Assembly: GCA_021413845.1 (NCBI GenBank)
Contig: JAIOPP010000079.1
Location: 1-33,940 of the forward strand
Reading direction: 5' to 3'
Length of the DNA stretch: 33,940 nt
Source: Planctomycetia bacterium
Lineage (GTDB): Bacteria > Planctomycetota > Planctomycetia > Pirellulales > PNKZ01
Part shown: positions 1-33,940 of the stretch, piece by piece
How the letters are laid out: every line of letters begins with the position of its first letter
Position numbering within the stretch: position 1 is the first letter of the stretch
The notes under the pieces: model-generated
Databases searched by the model: none
What the model saw: the letters and a program-made list of their open reading frames with translations, nothing else
What the model was told of the DNA's origin: nothing
Made by a program: the position numbers and the translations under genes

Positions 1-1231
1 ATAGCGCACCGATCCGGAGAGCCAGGCCGAGTTGTTCATCGGCCTTCGGGTCTACCGATTCGCCGCTCTCTTGAAACGTTCCCACCGGGGTATAGCCCGT
101 GCCGGTCACTTCGATTCGACGCCGGTCCAGCACGTAGACGCACACCGTCATTTCGTTCTTGGTCAAAGTCCCGGTCTTATCGGTGCAGATGACGGTCGTC
201 GCACCGAGGGTTTCGACGGCGGGGAGCCTGCGCACCAGCGCGCGCTTCCTCGCCATGCGCTGCATTCCTAACGCCAGCGTCATCGTAGCCACGGCGGGAA
301 GGCCTTCAGGCACTGCGGCGATGGCCAGCGAGAGCCCGATCTCCAACATGTGCCAGAAATCGGTGATACCCCGCAGCCACCCCGCCGCGACGATGATCGC
401 GCACAGAACCAGCACGACTAAGATGAGTATCTGACCAAGTCTCGCCAGTTTTTGTTCCAGCGGGGTATCGCGCGTCGTTGCCTCGTCGATCAGCGTGCCG
501 ATCTTTCCTACTTCCGTTCGCGCGCCGGTGGCCGTCACCAACATTCGCCCGCGTCCCTCCGTAATCGTCGTACTCAGGTATGCCATATTGATGCGGTCAC
601 CCAGCGCGGCGTCTTCGTCAGCGAGCTGTTCGGATGACTTAGTCACGGCGTGCGACTCGCCCGTCAGTGCCGCCTCTTCGATTTGCAAACGGACACTCTC
701 GACGATGCGACCATCGGCCGATACTCGCGCTCCGGCCGCTAAGATGATCAGATCTCCCGGCACCAACTCCGCCGCCGGAATTTCGCTCTGTCTCCCGTCT
801 CGAATCACATGGGCAACCCGCACGGCTTGTTTTTGCAAGGCGGATAGCGCCTGCTCCGCTTTCCACTCGGTCAAAAATCCGATGGCGGCGTTGATGATGA
901 TGACGACCAAGATCGCGATCGCCTCGATGATGTCGCCCATGGCGAAAGCGATCGCCGTGGCCGCGACCAGCAAAGCCACGATGAGACTTTGAAACTGCGC
1001 CAACAAGATATCTAAGGTCGAGCGCTGCTGAGCTCGGGCCAAAGTGTTGGGGCCATGCTCCGACAGCCTCCGGACGGCCTCGGCGCCGGAAAGTCCGCGC
1101 GTCGGATCGGACTTTTGCTGATCCTTCACAGCTTCGACGGACAGGGTGTGCCAATTGACTTCGTCGATTCGCCGTGGGACATGACCGGCGTTGGAATGAC
1201 CGCGCACTTCGTCGGGCTGACTATCGTTCAT
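1..1231 (-). CDS. Type II cation-transporting P-type ATPase (Ca2+/Na+-like, CtpF/PMR1 type), N-terminal part
   Basis: An ion pump of the inner membrane, driven by ATP through a phospho-aspartate intermediate. The 410 visible residues begin with a cation-ATPase N-terminal domain ([17 protein letters not shown]), then a TM pair, the actuator domain with TGES, a second TM pair holding PEGLP (typical of type II pumps, not of heavy-metal pumps, which have CPC), and the phosphorylation motif [13 protein letters not shown] with its Asp at residue 351 (bases 179-181). The gene runs off the left edge, so the nucleotide-binding domain and last TM helices are not seen. Start chosen at ATG 1229-1231, with a weak GGAAA upstream. 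It lies 122 bp downstream of the reductase gene on the same strand. The ion cannot be fixed from this part; Ca2+ is most usual, and mycobacterial CtpF of the same class belongs to the DosR dormancy regulon. Confidence 0.9.
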
Positions 1232-27335: not shown

Positions 27336-27378
27336 GATTCCGTCGCGGTAACGGAATCACTTTCGTAACACTTGTTAC
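27336..27378 (+). promoter_or_regulatory. Two adjacent dyads in the hsp20 leader
   Basis: GATTCCGT and ACGGAATC arms (8 bp, loop of 7) at 27336-27358, followed by GTAAC-ACTT-GTTAC at 27365-27378, ending 20 bp before the hsp20 ATG. They match neither CIRCE (TTAGCACTC-N9) nor HAIR (CTTGAGT-N7). Either an operator or RNA hairpins that affect translation. Confidence 0.45.
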
Positions 27379-27398
27379 CTAAACTACGAGAACTTTCC

Positions 27399-27800
27399 AT
27401 GTCGACCGCTTTGACCTCTCGCGTCTCACAAGCCCTGCGTCCGTTGTTCAATCGTGACCCCTTCGGCAGTTTGCAACAGGAGATGGACGACCTGCTGACC
27501 CGCTTCAAGCTGGATTTCAACGGTGACGGAAACCTTGCCGAGATCGTCCCTTCGCTCGACTTCTCGGAAACCGACGATGCCTATCAAATCCGGATGAACG
27601 TGCCCGGCGTCAAGGCCGACGAGGTCAACATCGAAGTGGTCGGCGATACGATCCGCATCAGCGGCGAACATAAGGAAGAGAAGCAAGAGAAGGGAACAAC
27701 CTACCATCGGGTCGAACGCCGCAGTGGGTCGTTTGCCCGCTCGCTCATGCTTCCTGTGGCGATCAAACAAGACGAGGTCGCGGCGGAATGCAAGGACGGC
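27399..27800 (+). pseudogene. Hsp20-family small heat shock protein, broken 3' end
   Basis: Small heat shock proteins hold unfolding proteins in the cytosol. Residues 1-134 read as a normal class A Hsp20: N-terminal arm DPFGSLQQEMDDLLTRF, then the alpha-crystallin domain with MNVPGVKADEVNIEVVGD, TIRISGEHKEE and FARSLMLPVAI up to AECKDG. In intact members this is followed by GVLTVTLPK and an I-x-I tail needed for oligomers. Here the frame continues with Arg-rich sequence (SRPRRRNAQGARLVRSPRRR), without stop, into the BON gene. The break at 27800 is therefore a frameshift, deletion or junction. ATG 27399 follows GAGAA by 7 nt. As read, a fused 281-residue product is possible but unlikely to be a working Hsp20. 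Confidence 0.8.
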
Positions 27801-27914
27801 AGTCGTCCTCGACGCCGAAACGCTCAGGGCGCGCGCCTGGTTCGCTCTCCTCGGAGGCGAGCCAGGCGTGCCGCTGCCCCGTCTCGTTCATGCATATCAT
27901 GGAGAACTTCCGCT

Positions 27915-28244
27915 ATGGCGCTTTCGCCGCCTGAAGGACAAGCCATCATCAAAGTCCTGATCGTCCGTCGCGATCGAAACGAGGCTTCGGAAGATTCACC
28001 GGCCGACGGCATCGCCGAGATCGCCGAAGAACGACTGCGAGCGATGGGATATCCTGAACTTCGTCGCGTCAACTGCTCGTGCTGCGAAGGAATTCTGATC
28101 CTGCGCGGACGCGTGACTTCCTACTTCTTTAAGCAATTGGCGCAGGAAGCTTTGCGAGCTCTACCCGGCAAGCGATCGATTCTCAATCACGTCGAAGTCG
28201 CACAAGGCGAAGTCGCAGAGTGTCCTACTTCGATGATCACCTAA
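27915..28244 (+). CDS. BON-domain protein
   Basis: 109 residues starting at ATG 27915, with GGAGAA about 8 nt before it. The BON domain spans about 30-100: IAEERLRAMGYPELRRVNCS, then EGILILRGRVTSYFFKQLAQ and a closing ILNHVEV. BON domains bind phospholipid or other surfaces and are common in osmotic-shock and stress proteins (OsmY). There is no signal peptide, so it is probably cytoplasmic; short BON proteins like this are frequent in planctomycetes. The C-S-C-C cluster in the middle is unusual for BON and might bind metal. It lies in the same frame as the damaged hsp20, with no stop between. Confidence 0.8.
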   Translation: MALSPPEGQAIIKVLIVRRDRNEASEDSPADGIAEIAEERLRAMGYPELRRVNCSCCEGILILRGRVTSYFFKQLAQEALRALPGKRSILNHVEVAQGEVAECPTSMIT

Positions 28245-28364
28245 CGATCAGAAGTACTCACACGTCGCAGCTGGTTATGTTCCCGATTCATTCATAGATC
28301 ACCTTATCGAATCCGGACGTGTTCGGTACAAGCCGTCACGCCGACATTTCTCGGAGAGCCGCTC

Positions 28365-28439
28365 GTGAAAGCTCAGCTCATCTTAGTGCCGATCGATTTC
28401 TCCCCGACCGGCTGCACCGCCTTGACCTGCCCCCCTTAA
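28365..28439 (+). pseudogene. 5' fragment of a universal stress protein (UspA) gene
   Basis: GTG 28365, with GGAGAG about 6 nt before it, opens VKAQLILVPIDFSPTGCTAL, the first beta strand and ATP-loop start of UspA-family proteins (LVPIDFS). After 19-20 residues the frame enters the palindrome at 28423 and stops at TAA 28437-28439. The other 120 or more residues are not on the far side of the palindrome. So the gene was cut off at exactly the palindrome border. Confidence 0.8.
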
Positions 28440-28943
28440 ACGAGTCCGGTCGTCAGTCGTAGACTGACGACCGGACTCGTTTAAGGGGGGCAGGTCACGG
28501 GCCACGAGTGCTTCGAGTTCCTGGCGAACTTCCTTCGACGCCTTGCCGGCGTACTTCTTCACGGCGCCGAGAAAGTCGGCATCGGCAGCGAGCATTCGCT
28601 TTGTGGCGACCGACACGTTCCTACCCGGAATCGCCCGGCCCCGTTGGCGGACATCGTCGACGGTTGCGGAACCCGCGGACGCGATTGCCTTGACGCCGTC
28701 GCTCAGACCGTCGAAGACCTCGCGCAAGACATTGCGGCTCGAAGCCGGGATGCTCTTGTCGACGGTCTCCACGGCTCCTTCGAGGACTTCTTGGACCAAC
28801 TTAGGCACGTCGCTCAACGAGAGTTTGCGATCGCGGAATGCGGCGATCGATAGCGCGCGGACGCGATCTCGCACCGCAGCGCCTTCGGCGGCCTCTTTCG
28901 CACCAGCCTTGGTGTGGCGAGCGCCGGTCTTTTTCGTAACCAT
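28383..28943 (-). pseudogene. Helical, basic-headed protein of unknown function, C terminus replaced
   Basis: From ATG 28941-28943 the product starts MVTKKTGARHTKAGAKEAAE, a Lys/Ala-rich head like histone H1 tails, and continues as mostly helical sequence (SLSDVPKLVQEVLEGAVETV, KRMLAADADFLGAVKKYAGK) with phasin-like composition. Native sequence ends around ELEALVAR (bases 28498-28505). The remaining residues to the stop at 28383 are encoded by the palindrome and by the opposite strand of the usp fragment, so they are not original. GGAAA lies about 10 nt before the ATG; TTG 28958 is a less likely start. The gene faces the usp fragment, and both lost their 3' ends at the palindrome. Family not recognised with certainty. 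Confidence 0.65.
28423..28497. mobile_element. 75-bp perfect palindrome, 35-bp inverted repeats with a 5-bp core (MITE-like)
   Basis: Arms 28423-28457 and 28463-28497 are exact reverse complements; the core is CGTAG. The outer tips read TGACCTGCCCCCC, resembling the TGAactGcCCCC tips of IS3-family elements, and point outward, so this would be a miniature element consisting of little but its two ends. No target duplication is evident in the flanks. It separates a 5' usp fragment from the 3'-truncated gene on the other strand. Transcribed, it would form a very stable hairpin. Confidence 0.8.
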
Positions 28944-29072
28944 GGTTTGGGTTTCCAAGGGGTAAATGAACTGACTCGTCGGTGACGTGAACTAAAATCT
29001 TCGTCGCACCGATGCCTTTGAGCACGAGAATCCGAGAGGGGGACCGATCGGCCGGCTTCGTTCGAAGTCCAA

Positions 29073-29699
29073 CTAACCGGAGAAAATCCTTCGCAGCCAG
29101 TGTGCGATCCGATGGTTCGGATTCGACACCGCTTGAGAGCTCGAAGGCCTCGCATCACCGGCGGCCGTATGCCCGGTGATACTCTTGATTTTGATCCGAT
29201 AATAGATGGGTTCGAGCGATGTGGTCGGGTCCTGTCCGGGACGCGTTGTCCAGACGTCGCTTCCAGGCTGCCACCACATCGGGAGAGTATTAAGCGCAGT
29301 CCACGCTTCCCGCCGTCCATCGTCGAATGTCGGCTGACGGGGTTCGGCGGCCGCGGTGACCGCGACGACATTTCGCGGATGCTCCGGAGCCCGAAGCCGC
29401 ATCGTCTCCGTCTCGAGAGCCGCCGGCAACTCCTCGTAGACTCCGATCACGATGACGCTGACCCATTGGTCGTAGGCTACAACCTCGTCGAATTCGACAC
29501 AGACCAGTGGATTGGCGCGCATCCAATCGACCTTACGGCCCCGTGTCGTGAAACCATAAAGACTTTCTGAAGCTTCATGGTAAGCAAGATGCGTGGGGAC
29601 GATGTACGGCTGGTTTTCGTGCGCGCACGCCAATCTTGCCAGCTTCGCTCCGGCCAATACTTTGAGGCACGCCGTCCGGTCCATCTCACGAATCACCAT
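29073..29699 (-). CDS. PNPOx-like flavin (split-barrel) protein
   Basis: 208 residues of the pyridoxamine-5'-phosphate-oxidase-like split-barrel superfamily, close to NimA-type and DosR-regulated Rv-type proteins. Seen: MDRTACLKVLAGAKLARLAC (start helix and first strand), PYIVPTHLAYHEASESLYGF and TTRGRKVDWMRANPLVCVEF, the usual order of FMN-contacting segments. The C-terminal 60 residues (from about 150) are an extension with PTFDDGRREAW and IYYRIKIKSITGH. It probably binds FMN, F420 or haem; the substrate is unknown. ATG 29697-29699 is chosen over the ATG 29876 frame start because GAGG stands 7 nt ahead and the family match starts there. Confidence 0.85.
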   Translation of the reverse strand: MVIREMDRTACLKVLAGAKLARLACAHENQPYIVPTHLAYHEASESLYGFTTRGRKVDWMRANPLVCVEFDEVVAYDQWVSVIVIGVYEELPAALETETMRLRAPEHPRNVVAVTAAAEPRQPTFDDGRREAWTALNTLPMWWQPGSDVWTTRPGQDPTTSLEPIYYRIKIKSITGHTAAGDARPSSSQAVSNPNHRIAHWLRRIFSG

Positions 29700-30340
29700 C
29701 GTATATCCTCTTTTCTCGATACCTATCGACGACGTGGCGAACGGCTCGTTAGCGAAGCCCAGGGCTCGCTCCGCAAGCCACTCCGCTCGCAGGATCAATG
29801 ATGGCATGCGAAACCGTGAGGTCGGTTTCATAGTCTGTCTAGATCCGCGACGTGAACTCGAAGACCTGATCAGCAACTCTTGGGCCGACCGATCCCGATT
29901 CCCCGTAAGCGAAAACGCCGCGACTTCTCATGGGATCGTGATTTCGAAGCTCTGGCGCGGAACGAAGTCGCGATCAATCGCGGTTCGATGGACGCGAAAG
30001 GTTGATGGCCGCGGACCGCCGCCGCGCGTCGCTGCAGGCGCCTCGTCGATGAGCGATCGAATCGGAACGCCGGAGCGACCCGCCGTCGGATTGATTCAAG
30101 ATGTGCGGATTCGGTCATTCAAGCGGAGGTTGCGTGCGAATCGGCGCGCATACCGAACCCTTTGTCGGTCGTTATTCGCACCGCTGAATTGATTCGGGCG
30201 TGCTCAACCTGCTTATCGAACGGGATTTAGCTTCGATTCCATACCCATGGCCGAGCGAATGTCGTCGCGCCGATCAGACGCGGTATCGGCATTGCATAAG
30301 GAAGACGTCGGAAGTCGCATTCAAACAATCGAGGTGGTCT
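29700..30340. other. Intergenic region without recognisable gene
   Basis: 641 bp between divergent genes (PNPOx-like on minus, 1039-residue protein on plus). Open frames (29593-30192 plus, 29870-30118 minus) are Arg/Ser-rich and lack domains or ribosome sites. It should hold both promoters; none is convincing by eye. Confidence 0.55.
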
Positions 30341-33300
30341 ATGTTCAGCGATCGGACGCAAGTCAAGGATGCTCGTCAACCTGTCGGTCCTTGTGGAGTG
30401 GTCCGGGCGACCTTGGTCTTGGCGACGTGGGCGTCGCTCGTCGCATTCGTTTCGCCTACGGTGGCCGCCGACTTGAAGTGGAACGATGCGCCGGTGGTGG
30501 GCTACGCGCGTGTCGCGCCGCTCGATCGCTTGCAGCGAGACCTATCTTTCTTAGGTGAAAACGTCGACGGCGGGAAATCGATCGGCGGCGTGAAAGACGC
30601 GATCATGGAACTCTCCGCCGGTATCGATGCCGCCCGGCCTGCAGGGCTCGTCGTTTATGCCGATGATTCGTTGAACATCGTTGCTTTCGTACCGCTGAAG
30701 GATGAGGAGAAGCTGTTCGCCGCACTTCGCTCGCGGTTCGGCTGGGAGTTCCGCCGCGGCGACGACGGAATCTATCGCGGCGGCAATGTCAACGTTGCGG
30801 CGCGCGTCTCGGGCTCATGGCTGTTCGTAACGGGAGCGACGCATGCCGCGCGACTGTCGAAGGTTCCCGAGGATCCGATGCGGTTGTTCGAAGGCTTGGA
30901 TCCGACCGTCACGGCTCAAGCAGGGATGATGCTCGACCAATTGCCCGCCGAATTAAGAAAGACTTTCGACTCCCTGATCTTGGAGTCGTGTGCGCCGGCC
31001 CAGAGCGGCGCTGCGGCGGGCTCGTCGAGCACCGAATGGATCGGCCCTCTCACTAAGCAGTTGCTCTCGGATACCCGACGCTGGGAGTTCGAACTGCAAT
31101 GCCTCCGCCCGGTCGAGCAGTTTCATGTGACGTCGCGGCTGGTCCCCGTGAAAGCGAGCAAGCTCGAAAGTTGGATCGAAGCGGCCGCTCAACGCCCCTC
31201 GATGTTCGAACATCTGGCTTCCGAAAATGCCGCCGCGGCGATCATCTCTTCGCTGGCGCTCGACGCCGCGACGATCGAGCCGTTGCTCCGTGCTTGGGAC
31301 GAGCAGGCTGCGAAGGCGCGAGCCGCCGCACCGTCGCCCGAATCGCCGCAAGCCGAGCTGCGCGCGCTCGGCGTCTTGGTCGCTCAGACCCTGGAGGCCG
31401 TGACCACGACTTTGCGAAAGGGAGAACTCGACGGCGGCGTCGTGCTCGAACGACAAGGCCAAGGACACCTCAACGTGCTGGCCGGAGGCACGCTCTACGG
31501 CTCGCGCGCCATTCAGGAGAAAGCGCTCGAAGTCGCCCAAATGCTTCAGCCGCAAGAAGGGTTTCGCGCCTTGAACTGGGCTGTGTCGCAAAACGGCGAT
31601 GTCTCGCTCAACCAGCTTCAACTCCCGATGAAAGACGAGAACGCTCGCCGAATCTTCGGTGAGTCGCTGTATGTGGTGATCGGCTTCGGTCCCGACAGGC
31701 TCTATTCGTCGCTCGGAGACGAAGAAGCTATCGGGAAGCTCTCGCTCGCCGTCGATCGCTCGCGCGAAGACCGCCCGTCGCGCGGCGAGCCGCTTCGCGT
31801 GACGTTGCGGATGGCTCCGTTCACGGCCTTGCTGAACGACTTCTCCGACAAGAAGTCGGCTTCCGACGGGCAGATTCGTTCCATGGCCGAGCAAATCGCG
31901 CCGTACAAGAAAAACGATACGCTTGCCTTCACGGTTCGGGCCGGCGAGGGAGCGTTGGAGAGTCGGTTGCGAATCGATATGGGAGTCTTGCGGATGTTGG
32001 CTTCGTCGATTCCGAAACCCGGCGCGCCGCCGCGCCCCGAAACAGGCGTGCCCACCTCACCTCCGGCGGCCGGCGGTTCGAATCTTGCGTTGCGACCCGC
32101 GCCCGGCGATCGCTTTCAGATCCAGTTCGATACCGATTCCGAAGTGAAGACCAAGATCGACGCCGCCGAACGGGTCGATCAAGGCAAATACTCGACGCTC
32201 TACGACTTCCGCGTGCTCGAAGCCCGACCCGACGGCGCGGTGCGGCTCGAAGCCGTGCTCAAGCGGGCGATCATCAAGAAGACCGGGGCCGACGGCAATT
32301 CGTCGTTCGATTCCGCCGCGAAGGGCGCTCCTGAGAAAATGACCGCGGAAACGGTGCTGTATGCGGCCATGGTCGACGAGCCGTTCCAAATGACCGTAGC
32401 GGCCGACGGCTCGCTGGGCGAGTTCGGCGGCTTGGCCGAAGCGGTCCAGCGAATGGTCGATAACAAGTTACAGCCCCCCGCGAACGAGCGTGCGCAAGCG
32501 CAAGCCTTCGTCGAACAGTCGTTCAATGCCAACGCTCTGCGGGATAGCCTCGGTCGCGCCTTCGAGTTCTATCCCGGCAAGTCAGTCTCCGAGGGAGATC
32601 GTTGGAGCCGGACGACCGAAAACTTCTCGGGCATCGATTTCTTCTTAGACAATAAGTATCAGCTGAAATCGCTTGCGGCGAGCGAAGCGGTGATCTCGGT
32701 GCGGGCTCAAGTCCGCGAGAAGGAAGCCGATGCCGCCGCGCCGATCCGCTGGGAAGTCTTGGGAACTCAGACCGGCACGATCAAGCTTCGCCCCCAAGAC
32801 GGCCGCTTGCTGTCGTCCGAGTATGTCCTGAAGTTCGACGCCGAAGCGACGCTGAAGATGGACGGCAAGACGGTCGTCCGTCCGGTGACGTCGACGATCA
32901 AAATGACGATCGGTCCGCCCGCCGCTCCCGCAGCGGGCCGTGCCGCAGTCGGAAACGCAGCGGAACGAGAACTGTGGCGGCACGCCGGCGGCCACTTCGC
33001 CGACCACGGTTCCGGGAATTGGGTCGAGCGGAGTCAGAACGGCAGCTTCGATCTGCAAGAAGTCGAGCGGAGCCCGCAGCACATCGAGCTTGTTTCCAAG
33101 AGCGGCACCGGAACACGCGTCCGCCTGTTCGCAGGGCAATCGGACATTCTCCGCCGGGGGCAAGGCCCGTGGACCCGGCAATACAACGGCGATTGGGCGG
33201 CCGCACCGGCGGCGGAGCAACGCGTCTTCTGGAGTCACCCGCAAGGATTCTTCGATCAGGTTGCCGAGGGGAAGTGGCTCGAAAGGAGCGCTAACGGGGC

Positions 33301-33460
33301 GTTTCACTTCGTCGAAGCGGCGCGGACCGATGACTACGTCGAACTGCGAAACATGCAAACCGGAACACTTGTCCGCCTGTTCGGCGGCCGTTGCGAACTG
33401 AAGGGCGAAAAGCAAAGCGAGTTCACGACCCGTTATCAGGGTGAATGGAAAGCCAGATAA
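30341..33460 (+). CDS. Large exported protein with two C-terminal tandem repeats
   Basis: 1039 residues. After ATG 30341 (GAGG 6 nt upstream; the open frame extends to 30200) comes a long signal region with hydrophobic ATLVLATWASLVAFVSPTVAA, so it is exported. The main body (about 50-570) is alpha/beta with a repeated layout typical of planctomycete proteins of unknown function; a Pro-rich linker (PGAPPRPETGVPTSPPAAGG) leads to a domain (about 580-860) with RPAPGDRFQIQFDTDSE, and then two similar modules of about 80 residues. I do not recognise a family. It starts 640 bp from the PNPOx-like gene and is followed by ppsA after 146 bp. Confidence 0.8.
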   Translation: MFSDRTQVKDARQPVGPCGVVRATLVLATWASLVAFVSPTVAADLKWNDAPVVGYARVAPLDRLQRDLSFLGENVDGGKSIGGVKDAIMELSAGIDAARPAGLVVYADDSLNIVAFVPLKDEEKLFAALRSRFGWEFRRGDDGIYRGGNVNVAARVSGSWLFVTGATHAARLSKVPEDPMRLFEGLDPTVTAQAGMMLDQLPAELRKTFDSLILESCAPAQSGAAAGSSSTEWIGPLTKQLLSDTRRWEFELQCLRPVEQFHVTSRLVPVKASKLESWIEAAAQRPSMFEHLASENAAAAIISSLALDAATIEPLLRAWDEQAAKARAAAPSPESPQAELRALGVLVAQTLEAVTTTLRKGELDGGVVLERQGQGHLNVLAGGTLYGSRAIQEKALEVAQMLQPQEGFRALNWAVSQNGDVSLNQLQLPMKDENARRIFGESLYVVIGFGPDRLYSSLGDEEAIGKLSLAVDRSREDRPSRGEPLRVTLRMAPFTALLNDFSDKKSASDGQIRSMAEQIAPYKKNDTLAFTVRAGEGALESRLRIDMGVLRMLASSIPKPGAPPRPETGVPTSPPAAGGSNLALRPAPGDRFQIQFDTDSEVKTKIDAAERVDQGKYSTLYDFRVLEARPDGAVRLEAVLKRAIIKKTGADGNSSFDSAAKGAPEKMTAETVLYAAMVDEPFQMTVAADGSLGEFGGLAEAVQRMVDNKLQPPANERAQAQAFVEQSFNANALRDSLGRAFEFYPGKSVSEGDRWSRTTENFSGIDFFLDNKYQLKSLAASEAVISVRAQVREKEADAAAPIRWEVLGTQTGTIKLRPQDGRLLSSEYVLKFDAEATLKMDGKTVVRPVTSTIKMTIGPPAAPAAGRAAVGNAAERELWRHAGGHFADHGSGNWVERSQNGSFDLQEVERSPQHIELVSKSGTGTRVRLFAGQSDILRRGQGPWTRQYNGDWAAAPAAEQRVFWSHPQGFFDQVAEGKWLERSANGAFHFVEAARTDDYVELRNMQTGTLVRLFGGRCELKGEKQSEFTTRYQGEWKAR
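32969..33457 (+). repeat. Two 85-residue tandem modules in the large exported protein
   Basis: Module 1 starts ELWRHAGGHFADHGSGNWVE and module 2 VFWSHPQGFFDQVAEGKWLE; matched positions include the W, the H/P-x-G-x-F, W-x-ER-S-x-NG-x-F and R-V/L-RLF-x-G. The period is 255 bp (Trp codons at 32975 and 33230). The pattern suggests a small beta domain, possibly binding ligand or surface. Module 1 has a longer end than module 2. Confidence 0.8.
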
Positions 33461-33606
33461 GCCTGTACGACTCCTGCAAGTAGTTCAGTAGGGCCCGTAC
33501 CCAACCGACCTTGTCGATTCTCCTATCGGCCGCCGTTCAAACTGCGTTAATGAAACGTGAACGAGTAACGACCTTCAAAATGTTTGCCACGCCGAGGATG
33601 TAGAAC

Positions 33607-33940
33607 ATGACCGCCATCGCTACCGAATTCATCAAACGCTTCGCCCAGATCGGCATCGAGGACATTGCGAGCGTCGGCGGGAAGAACGCCTCGCTCGGGG
33701 AAATGGTTCGCGAACTGGTACCGCGAGGAATCCGCGTACCCGACGGCTTCGCCGTCACGGCCGAAGCCTACCGTTACTTCCTCACGGCGAATCGGCTCAA
33801 CGACGAAATTCGCCGCGAACTCGGCGCACTCGACGTCGGTGATGTCGCCGCTCTGCAACGGTGCGGCAGCCGTGTGCGACAACTGATTCTCGACGCGACT
33901 TTTCCCGACGACCTGCGGCAGGCGATCGTCGAAGCGTACG
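33607..33940 (+). CDS. ppsA: Phosphoenolpyruvate synthase, N-terminal part
   Basis: Cytosolic enzyme making phosphoenolpyruvate from pyruvate and ATP, releasing AMP and phosphate, for gluconeogenesis. The 111 visible residues show the start of the PEP/pyruvate-binding (ATP-grasp) domain: VGGKNASLGEMVRELVPRG, then IRVPDGFAVTAEAYRYFL. The catalytic His and the C-terminal barrel lie past the window edge. ATG 33607 has GAGG about 9 nt upstream. Pyruvate phosphate dikinase shares this domain, but the spacing of GGKNASLGEM and VPDGFAVTAEAY fits PpsA better. It is often found next to USP and Hsp20 genes in stress clusters. Confidence 0.9.
   Translation, partial: MTAIATEFIKRFAQIGIEDIASVGGKNASLGEMVRELVPRGIRVPDGFAVTAEAYRYFLTANRLNDEIRRELGALDVGDVAALQRCGSRVRQLILDATFPDDLRQAIVEAY

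Follow-up and report, generated by a model that had tools for sequence, protein, structure and literature searches.

A perfect palindrome between two truncated genes in a Planctomycetia bacterium is probably a deletion scar of two oppositely facing IS3-family insertion sequences

The window analysed here is a stretch of 33,940 nucleotides in which two convergent genes end at a palindrome. On the plus strand lies the 5' stub of a usp gene (28365..28422), which starts with GTG at 28365, runs for 20 usp codons and then continues with codons from the tip of an insertion sequence (IS) until a TAA stop inside the repeat, at the 25th codon. The full-length usp of contig C141 matches the DNA over 28348-28424 (77 bp, 84% identity), and this match and the translation together confirm the original prediction that the gene ends after 20 codons. 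On the minus strand lies a DUF6781 gene without its 3' part (28498..28943; PF20572, E 1.5e-14), which starts with ATG at 28943. Up to the IS tip its product keeps to a paralogue from contig C47 (96% over 146 residues); beyond it the two diverge, in line with the 3' truncation that had been proposed for the opposite-strand gene. The C47 paralogue is a 270-aa frame, about 100 residues longer than the gene in the window. The DUF6781 frame remains open through the palindrome to 28383, indicating a cut gene with a foreign tail. DNA similarity to the paralogous C47 block begins at 28496, and the limits of the usp similarity (28424) and the DUF6781 similarity (28496) are each at most 2 bases from the IS tip. 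On the far side of the usp stub, a single plus-strand frame (27372-28244) encodes an HSP20 domain without its last part (profile positions 3-79 of 102) that runs into a BON domain. This frame may represent another fusion or deletion scar of greater age.

The sequence between the two genes, 28423-28497, was recomputed as an exact inverted repeat of 75 bp, with 35-bp arms and a 5-bp core, CGTAG, exactly as originally predicted. A further pair forms between the first and last bases of the core (C and G), which allows an alternative reading of 36-bp arms around a 3-nt core. The predicted RNA fold of the palindrome has an energy of -77.4 kcal/mol compared to a mean of -24.2 for 200 dinucleotide shuffles (z = -17), which excludes a chance origin. 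The tips of the palindrome, TGACCTGCCCCCC, point outward, and the same tips delimit IS copies at other sites in the genome. The flanking tetramers are GCCT and CGGG, with no 4-bp duplication in common. The unit occurs once in the 7.08-Mb, 167-contig draft genome, and among the 21 left-end and 13 right-end places of the IS no other pair of ends lies as close together.

Both arms of the palindrome were identified as left ends of one multicopy IS3-family insertion sequence. A genome-wide check for the same 35-bp ends returned the exact left end, with zero mismatches, at 16 other places, as well as one related full copy. The first 50 bp are common to all 16 of these left ends, each of which continues into the start of OrfA. 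The distance to the contig end is 138-141 bp in 15 of the 16 and 214 bp in the remaining one, as expected where a multicopy IS breaks a short-read assembly. Three further places match with one or two mismatches, namely the start of the full-length related copy of 1,266 bp (C1:59498), the start of a copy with OrfB broken off (C1:88175) and a left-end-like fragment (C6:15417). Since the multicopy IS is assembled at its ends alone, with the OrfA start visible, its transposase was assigned via the related full copy, whose OrfA and OrfB contain HTH_Tnp_1 and rve/rve_3 domains, as expected of an IS3 element with an HTH in OrfA and a DDE integrase core in OrfB. OrfB of this copy matches the IS3 family transposase model NF033516 with an E value of 1.4e-73, and the earlier guess that the tips are IS3-family ends was therefore right. 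Terminal inverted repeats of the IS3 type, which begin with TG and are accompanied in this family by a target duplication of 3-5 bp, are present at both ends of the multicopy IS, with the tips TGACCTGCCCCC.

Thirteen places were found to carry the right end of this element, which reads TGACCTGCCCCCACGCGTGATACC and so on. It has its first 12 bp in common with the left end and is divergent thereafter, which identifies both palindrome arms as left ends and means that a single IS cannot give the observed product. An internal deletion of a single IS was rejected for the same reason. The IS407 subgroup of IS3 is characterised by a 4-bp duplication together with a subgroup transposase; the multicopy IS shows the 4-bp duplication, a trait that does not by itself imply assignment to the subgroup. 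The left end was matched in 5 of 57 genomes including its own, with none of the three congeners among the matches. In the right part of the IS3 element in the stretch C1:58500-62500 (L053), IS positions 1166-1216 form an inverted repeat whose exact arms are 19 bp long (TCAAGCTTGGTCTTTTCGC), and a similar inverted repeat is present in the right ends of the multicopy IS. It is possible that this repeat serves as a terminator or as a second deletion site.

The position of the join could be narrowed to a few bases. The intact left end has a hairpin of its own at IS positions 26-50, GGTCGTCAGT-CGTAG-ACTGACGACC, and positions 1-75 form a quasi-palindrome in which 42 of 75 positions equal the reverse complement, including 22 of 25 in the hairpin. 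The palindrome corresponds to left-end positions 1-50 fused to the reverse complement of positions 25-1. When left-end positions 1..x were followed by the reverse complement for x+1..75, the palindrome was reproduced for x = 39-50 only (x = 0-75 tested), which places the switch in the right arm of the hairpin and gives the core the orientation of the usp-side copy. The palindrome can thus be divided into the left end of IS copy 1 on the usp side, covering positions 1-39 and part of the core CGTAG (28423..28461, plus strand) and identical to the 16 other left ends; an 11-bp stretch common to both copies, GACTGACGACC, with the join inside it or at its edge (28462..28472); and the left end of IS copy 2 on the DUF6781 side, which is the exact reverse complement of positions 1-25 (28473..28497, minus strand).

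When the 16 left flanks were paired with the 13 right flanks, four pairs shared a tetramer, compared to a mean of 1.07 at random offsets, with 47 of 2000 controls reaching four. Three of these four pairs rebuild a long open frame. A Pfam match crosses the rebuilt join in two of them (GmrSD_N and cytochrome CBB3), and rebuilding the third brings back a PAS-HisKA-HATPase order. Together, these results show that the multicopy IS makes 4-bp target duplications, and the unlike flanks of the palindrome therefore point to two separate insertions. As 12 of the 16 other left flanks are without a partner among the 13 right flanks found, the missing partner at the palindrome is not in itself proof of a deletion. 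The genome also still holds an arrangement of the kind that could give rise to such a product. Both ends of contig C102 (36,163 bp; L076, L077) carry an IS right end, so that an inverted IS pair with left ends outward is present, 36 kb apart. One side of C102 joins contig C44 through AATT with a continuous kinase gene, and the other side probably joins C157 through CGAT, where the tetramer and not a gene provides the match. If both of these copies are complete, a deletion at their left-end hairpins would yield a palindrome like that in the window.

Window positions 28496-33940 have a paralogous block in the same assembly (contig C47, L114, 3201-8215; 78% and 91% DNA identity), which could be a segmental duplication or, possibly, come from a second organism in the bin. 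The gene order on C47 is usp, a kinase gene that we take from its sequence to be of the UbiB/ABC1 type, and then a convergent DUF6781 gene. DUF6781 was found in 4 of 117 genomes, the present one included, and the other three keep the kinase-DUF6781 pair; the convergent arrangement is retained in C47 and in genomes G002, G003 and G006. A usp gene beside this pair had no match in the fetched stretches of G002, G003 and G006, and the ancestral gene order is accordingly taken from C47 only. The genome analysed here is an estimated 99.6% complete and contains two DUF6781 genes, and a search of it for a second UbiB/ABC1-type kinase returned one such kinase, that of C47. None of the 17 Usp matches in the assembly is a C-terminal part left orphaned at a contig end; two are partial but sit in long frames that hold another Usp domain. 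Comparison of 15 distinct right-end flanks of 300 bp with the C47 usp, DUF6781 and kinase genes gave no convincing match (best E 0.25). A search for the ancestral or empty site in 20 genomes, the present one included, returned distant HSP20/BON matches only.

Collectively, these results make it very probable that the palindrome is the scar of a deletion between two oppositely facing IS copies, located in usp and in the DUF6781 gene, with loss of the DNA between them. In separate events, usp and the DUF6781 gene would each have received a copy of the multicopy IS3-family element, the two copies facing opposite ways with their left ends outward. Because the copies are inverted, their terminal hairpins would act as direct repeats that agree at 22 of 25 bp and are exact over 11 bp at the join. 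Slippage of a nascent strand, or recombination of these repeats, could then lead from an arm of one hairpin into the corresponding arm in the second copy. The two IS bodies would be lost with their right ends and with the intervening DNA, which would have comprised the remainder of usp, the end of the DUF6781 gene and probably a kinase gene of the UbiB/ABC1 type, and only the two fused left-end segments (1-50 and the reverse complement of 25-1) would remain. We infer that two ancestral insertions took place and in which order, what DNA was lost, and that slippage is more likely than RecA recombination. Of the alternatives originally put forward, that of two copies that recombined and left only their ends is supported by the finding that both arms are left ends, whereas one insertion with a flanking deletion is insufficient because the left and right ends share only 12 bp. 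A deletion between two IS copies accounts for two truncated genes in this genome without any new element. The locus is most likely a tidy natural example, ordinary in kind, and not a new system.

We also scanned a collection of 85k genomes, which may not include the present one, for TGACCTGCCCCC and its complement spaced 36-64 bp apart. The scan returned 22 short outward-tip stretches (L139-L160) from several phyla, with no room for a transposase. Perfect arms of at least 19 bp are present in 6 of the 22, a right-end-like string in 9 by a crude motif test, and a flanking direct repeat of 3-5 bp is absent in 21, the exception being L145, which has a 4-bp repeat. A perfect left-left palindrome was found in none of the 22 stretches. 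In appearance they are a mix of miniature or deleted elements, and they give no direct support for left-left scars being recurrent.

The main rival to a genuine deletion is an assembly or library artefact, in which two IS-left-end loci were joined by chimeric molecules through template switching at the terminal hairpin. The assembly, a draft in 167 contigs, does break at nearly every copy of the multicopy IS, and chimeras form readily at hairpins. However, the join holds sequence that is absent from the other left ends and that plain repeat overlap cannot produce, and a plain repeat-overlap merge by the assembler was rejected on this basis. Chimeric reads would, moreover, need to outnumber the true ones on both sides, and the leftovers expected of two separate loci (an orphan usp remainder, a second kinase, a right-end flank matching the C47 usp, DUF6781 or kinase gene) were not found in the searches described above. 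We therefore regard an artefact as unlikely, while giving it some weight.

Far less weight falls on an insertion or evolution of the palindrome as a single unit, be it a miniature element (MITE) or a functional regulatory sequence. In its favour, the hairpin is highly stable, and short outward-tip pairs with no transposase do occur elsewhere, as in the 22 stretches above, L145 with its flanking 4-bp direct repeat among them. Neither of the traits by which a MITE is recognised, several copies and target duplications, was found for the palindrome, which is present in a single copy between GCCT and CGGG, and a simple insertion leaves unexplained why both neighbouring genes lack their ends. It is slightly less probable still that the transposase joined two left ends in a circle-type reaction of an inverted IS pair. 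IS3-family elements move via circles with abutted ends, and an inverted pair does offer two left ends; but abutted ends would meet tip to tip, whereas the palindrome has outward-pointing tips and is fused 25-50 bp into the ends. Transposase end joining is contradicted by this orientation and was rejected.

The hairpin at which the deletion appears to have occurred may have a role in the element itself. The left ends of the multicopy IS and its related copies are predicted to fold with the IS tip base-paired to the region that holds the ribosome-binding site and start codon. Hairpin-bearing left ends with a covarying inner stem were observed in L009, L014, L025, L053, L123 and L126. In a small alignment fitted around the hairpin, made of five left ends chosen and trimmed by hand and leaving out a divergent C4 copy that folds differently, 98% of the inner-stem cells are paired and 4 of 10 pairs have changes on both sides. 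The covariation score was reached by 0 of 500 shuffles and the number of double-change pairs by 5 of 500. Because the covariation exceeds that of the shuffles, the leader structure is probably selected. By analogy with other elements, it plausibly silences the transposase on read-through transcripts. Such silencing is known for IS10, and the accessible part of a report on ISPpu9 describes a 5'-leader structure that limits transposase translation (PMC8450116). That the leader hairpin doubles as a deletion hotspot, at which IS pairs with outward left ends are erased together with the intervening DNA and leave a palindromic scar, is a speculative proposal that we think unlikely to hold. If true, self-erasing IS pairs would be a general and overlooked route of genome reduction.

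The palindrome is a natural case in which deletion between two inverted IS copies can be followed to the terminal hairpins at base resolution. Deletion of this kind is known mainly from Tn10 and Tn5 in the laboratory, where nearly precise excision is independent of RecA and transposase. The pattern of the scar also offers a searchable signature of IS-pair deletions, namely two identical outward ends, unlike flanking tetramers and a truncated gene on either side. The literature searched yielded no description of a left-left IS3 palindrome, which is weak evidence of absence as subscription papers were mostly outside its scope. As in the nearly precise excision of Tn10 and Tn5 (Foster et al. 1981 Cell 23:215; Collins et al. 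1982 Gene 19:139; both as cited or discussed in the accessible parts of PMC5991714, PMC1762429 and PMC12524634), the DNA between inverted IS copies is lost through a join at short repeats near the outer ends, here at positions 39-50 within a 22-of-25 bp repeat, and a short symmetric remnant built of the two outer ends is left, here two left ends with their tips outward. In Tn10 and Tn5, however, both outer ends lie in one target with one duplication, whereas here they lie in different genes and host DNA and gene parts were lost; the element is also of the IS3 family, in contrast to the IS10 or IS50 of these transposons. The palindrome further resembles quasipalindrome-associated template switching, as far as the accessible text of PMC7202029 and PMC8794818 describes it, in that a switch between hairpin arms makes an imperfect inverted repeat perfect, but the switch here would be to the other IS copy without return, resulting in a deletion rather than in arm correction. 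With the IS-associated deletions without target duplications described in the accessible part of PMC11708052 it shares IS ends, the lack of a duplication and the loss of adjacent DNA. The usual deletion of that type keeps a full IS copy, whereas here two left ends alone were retained.
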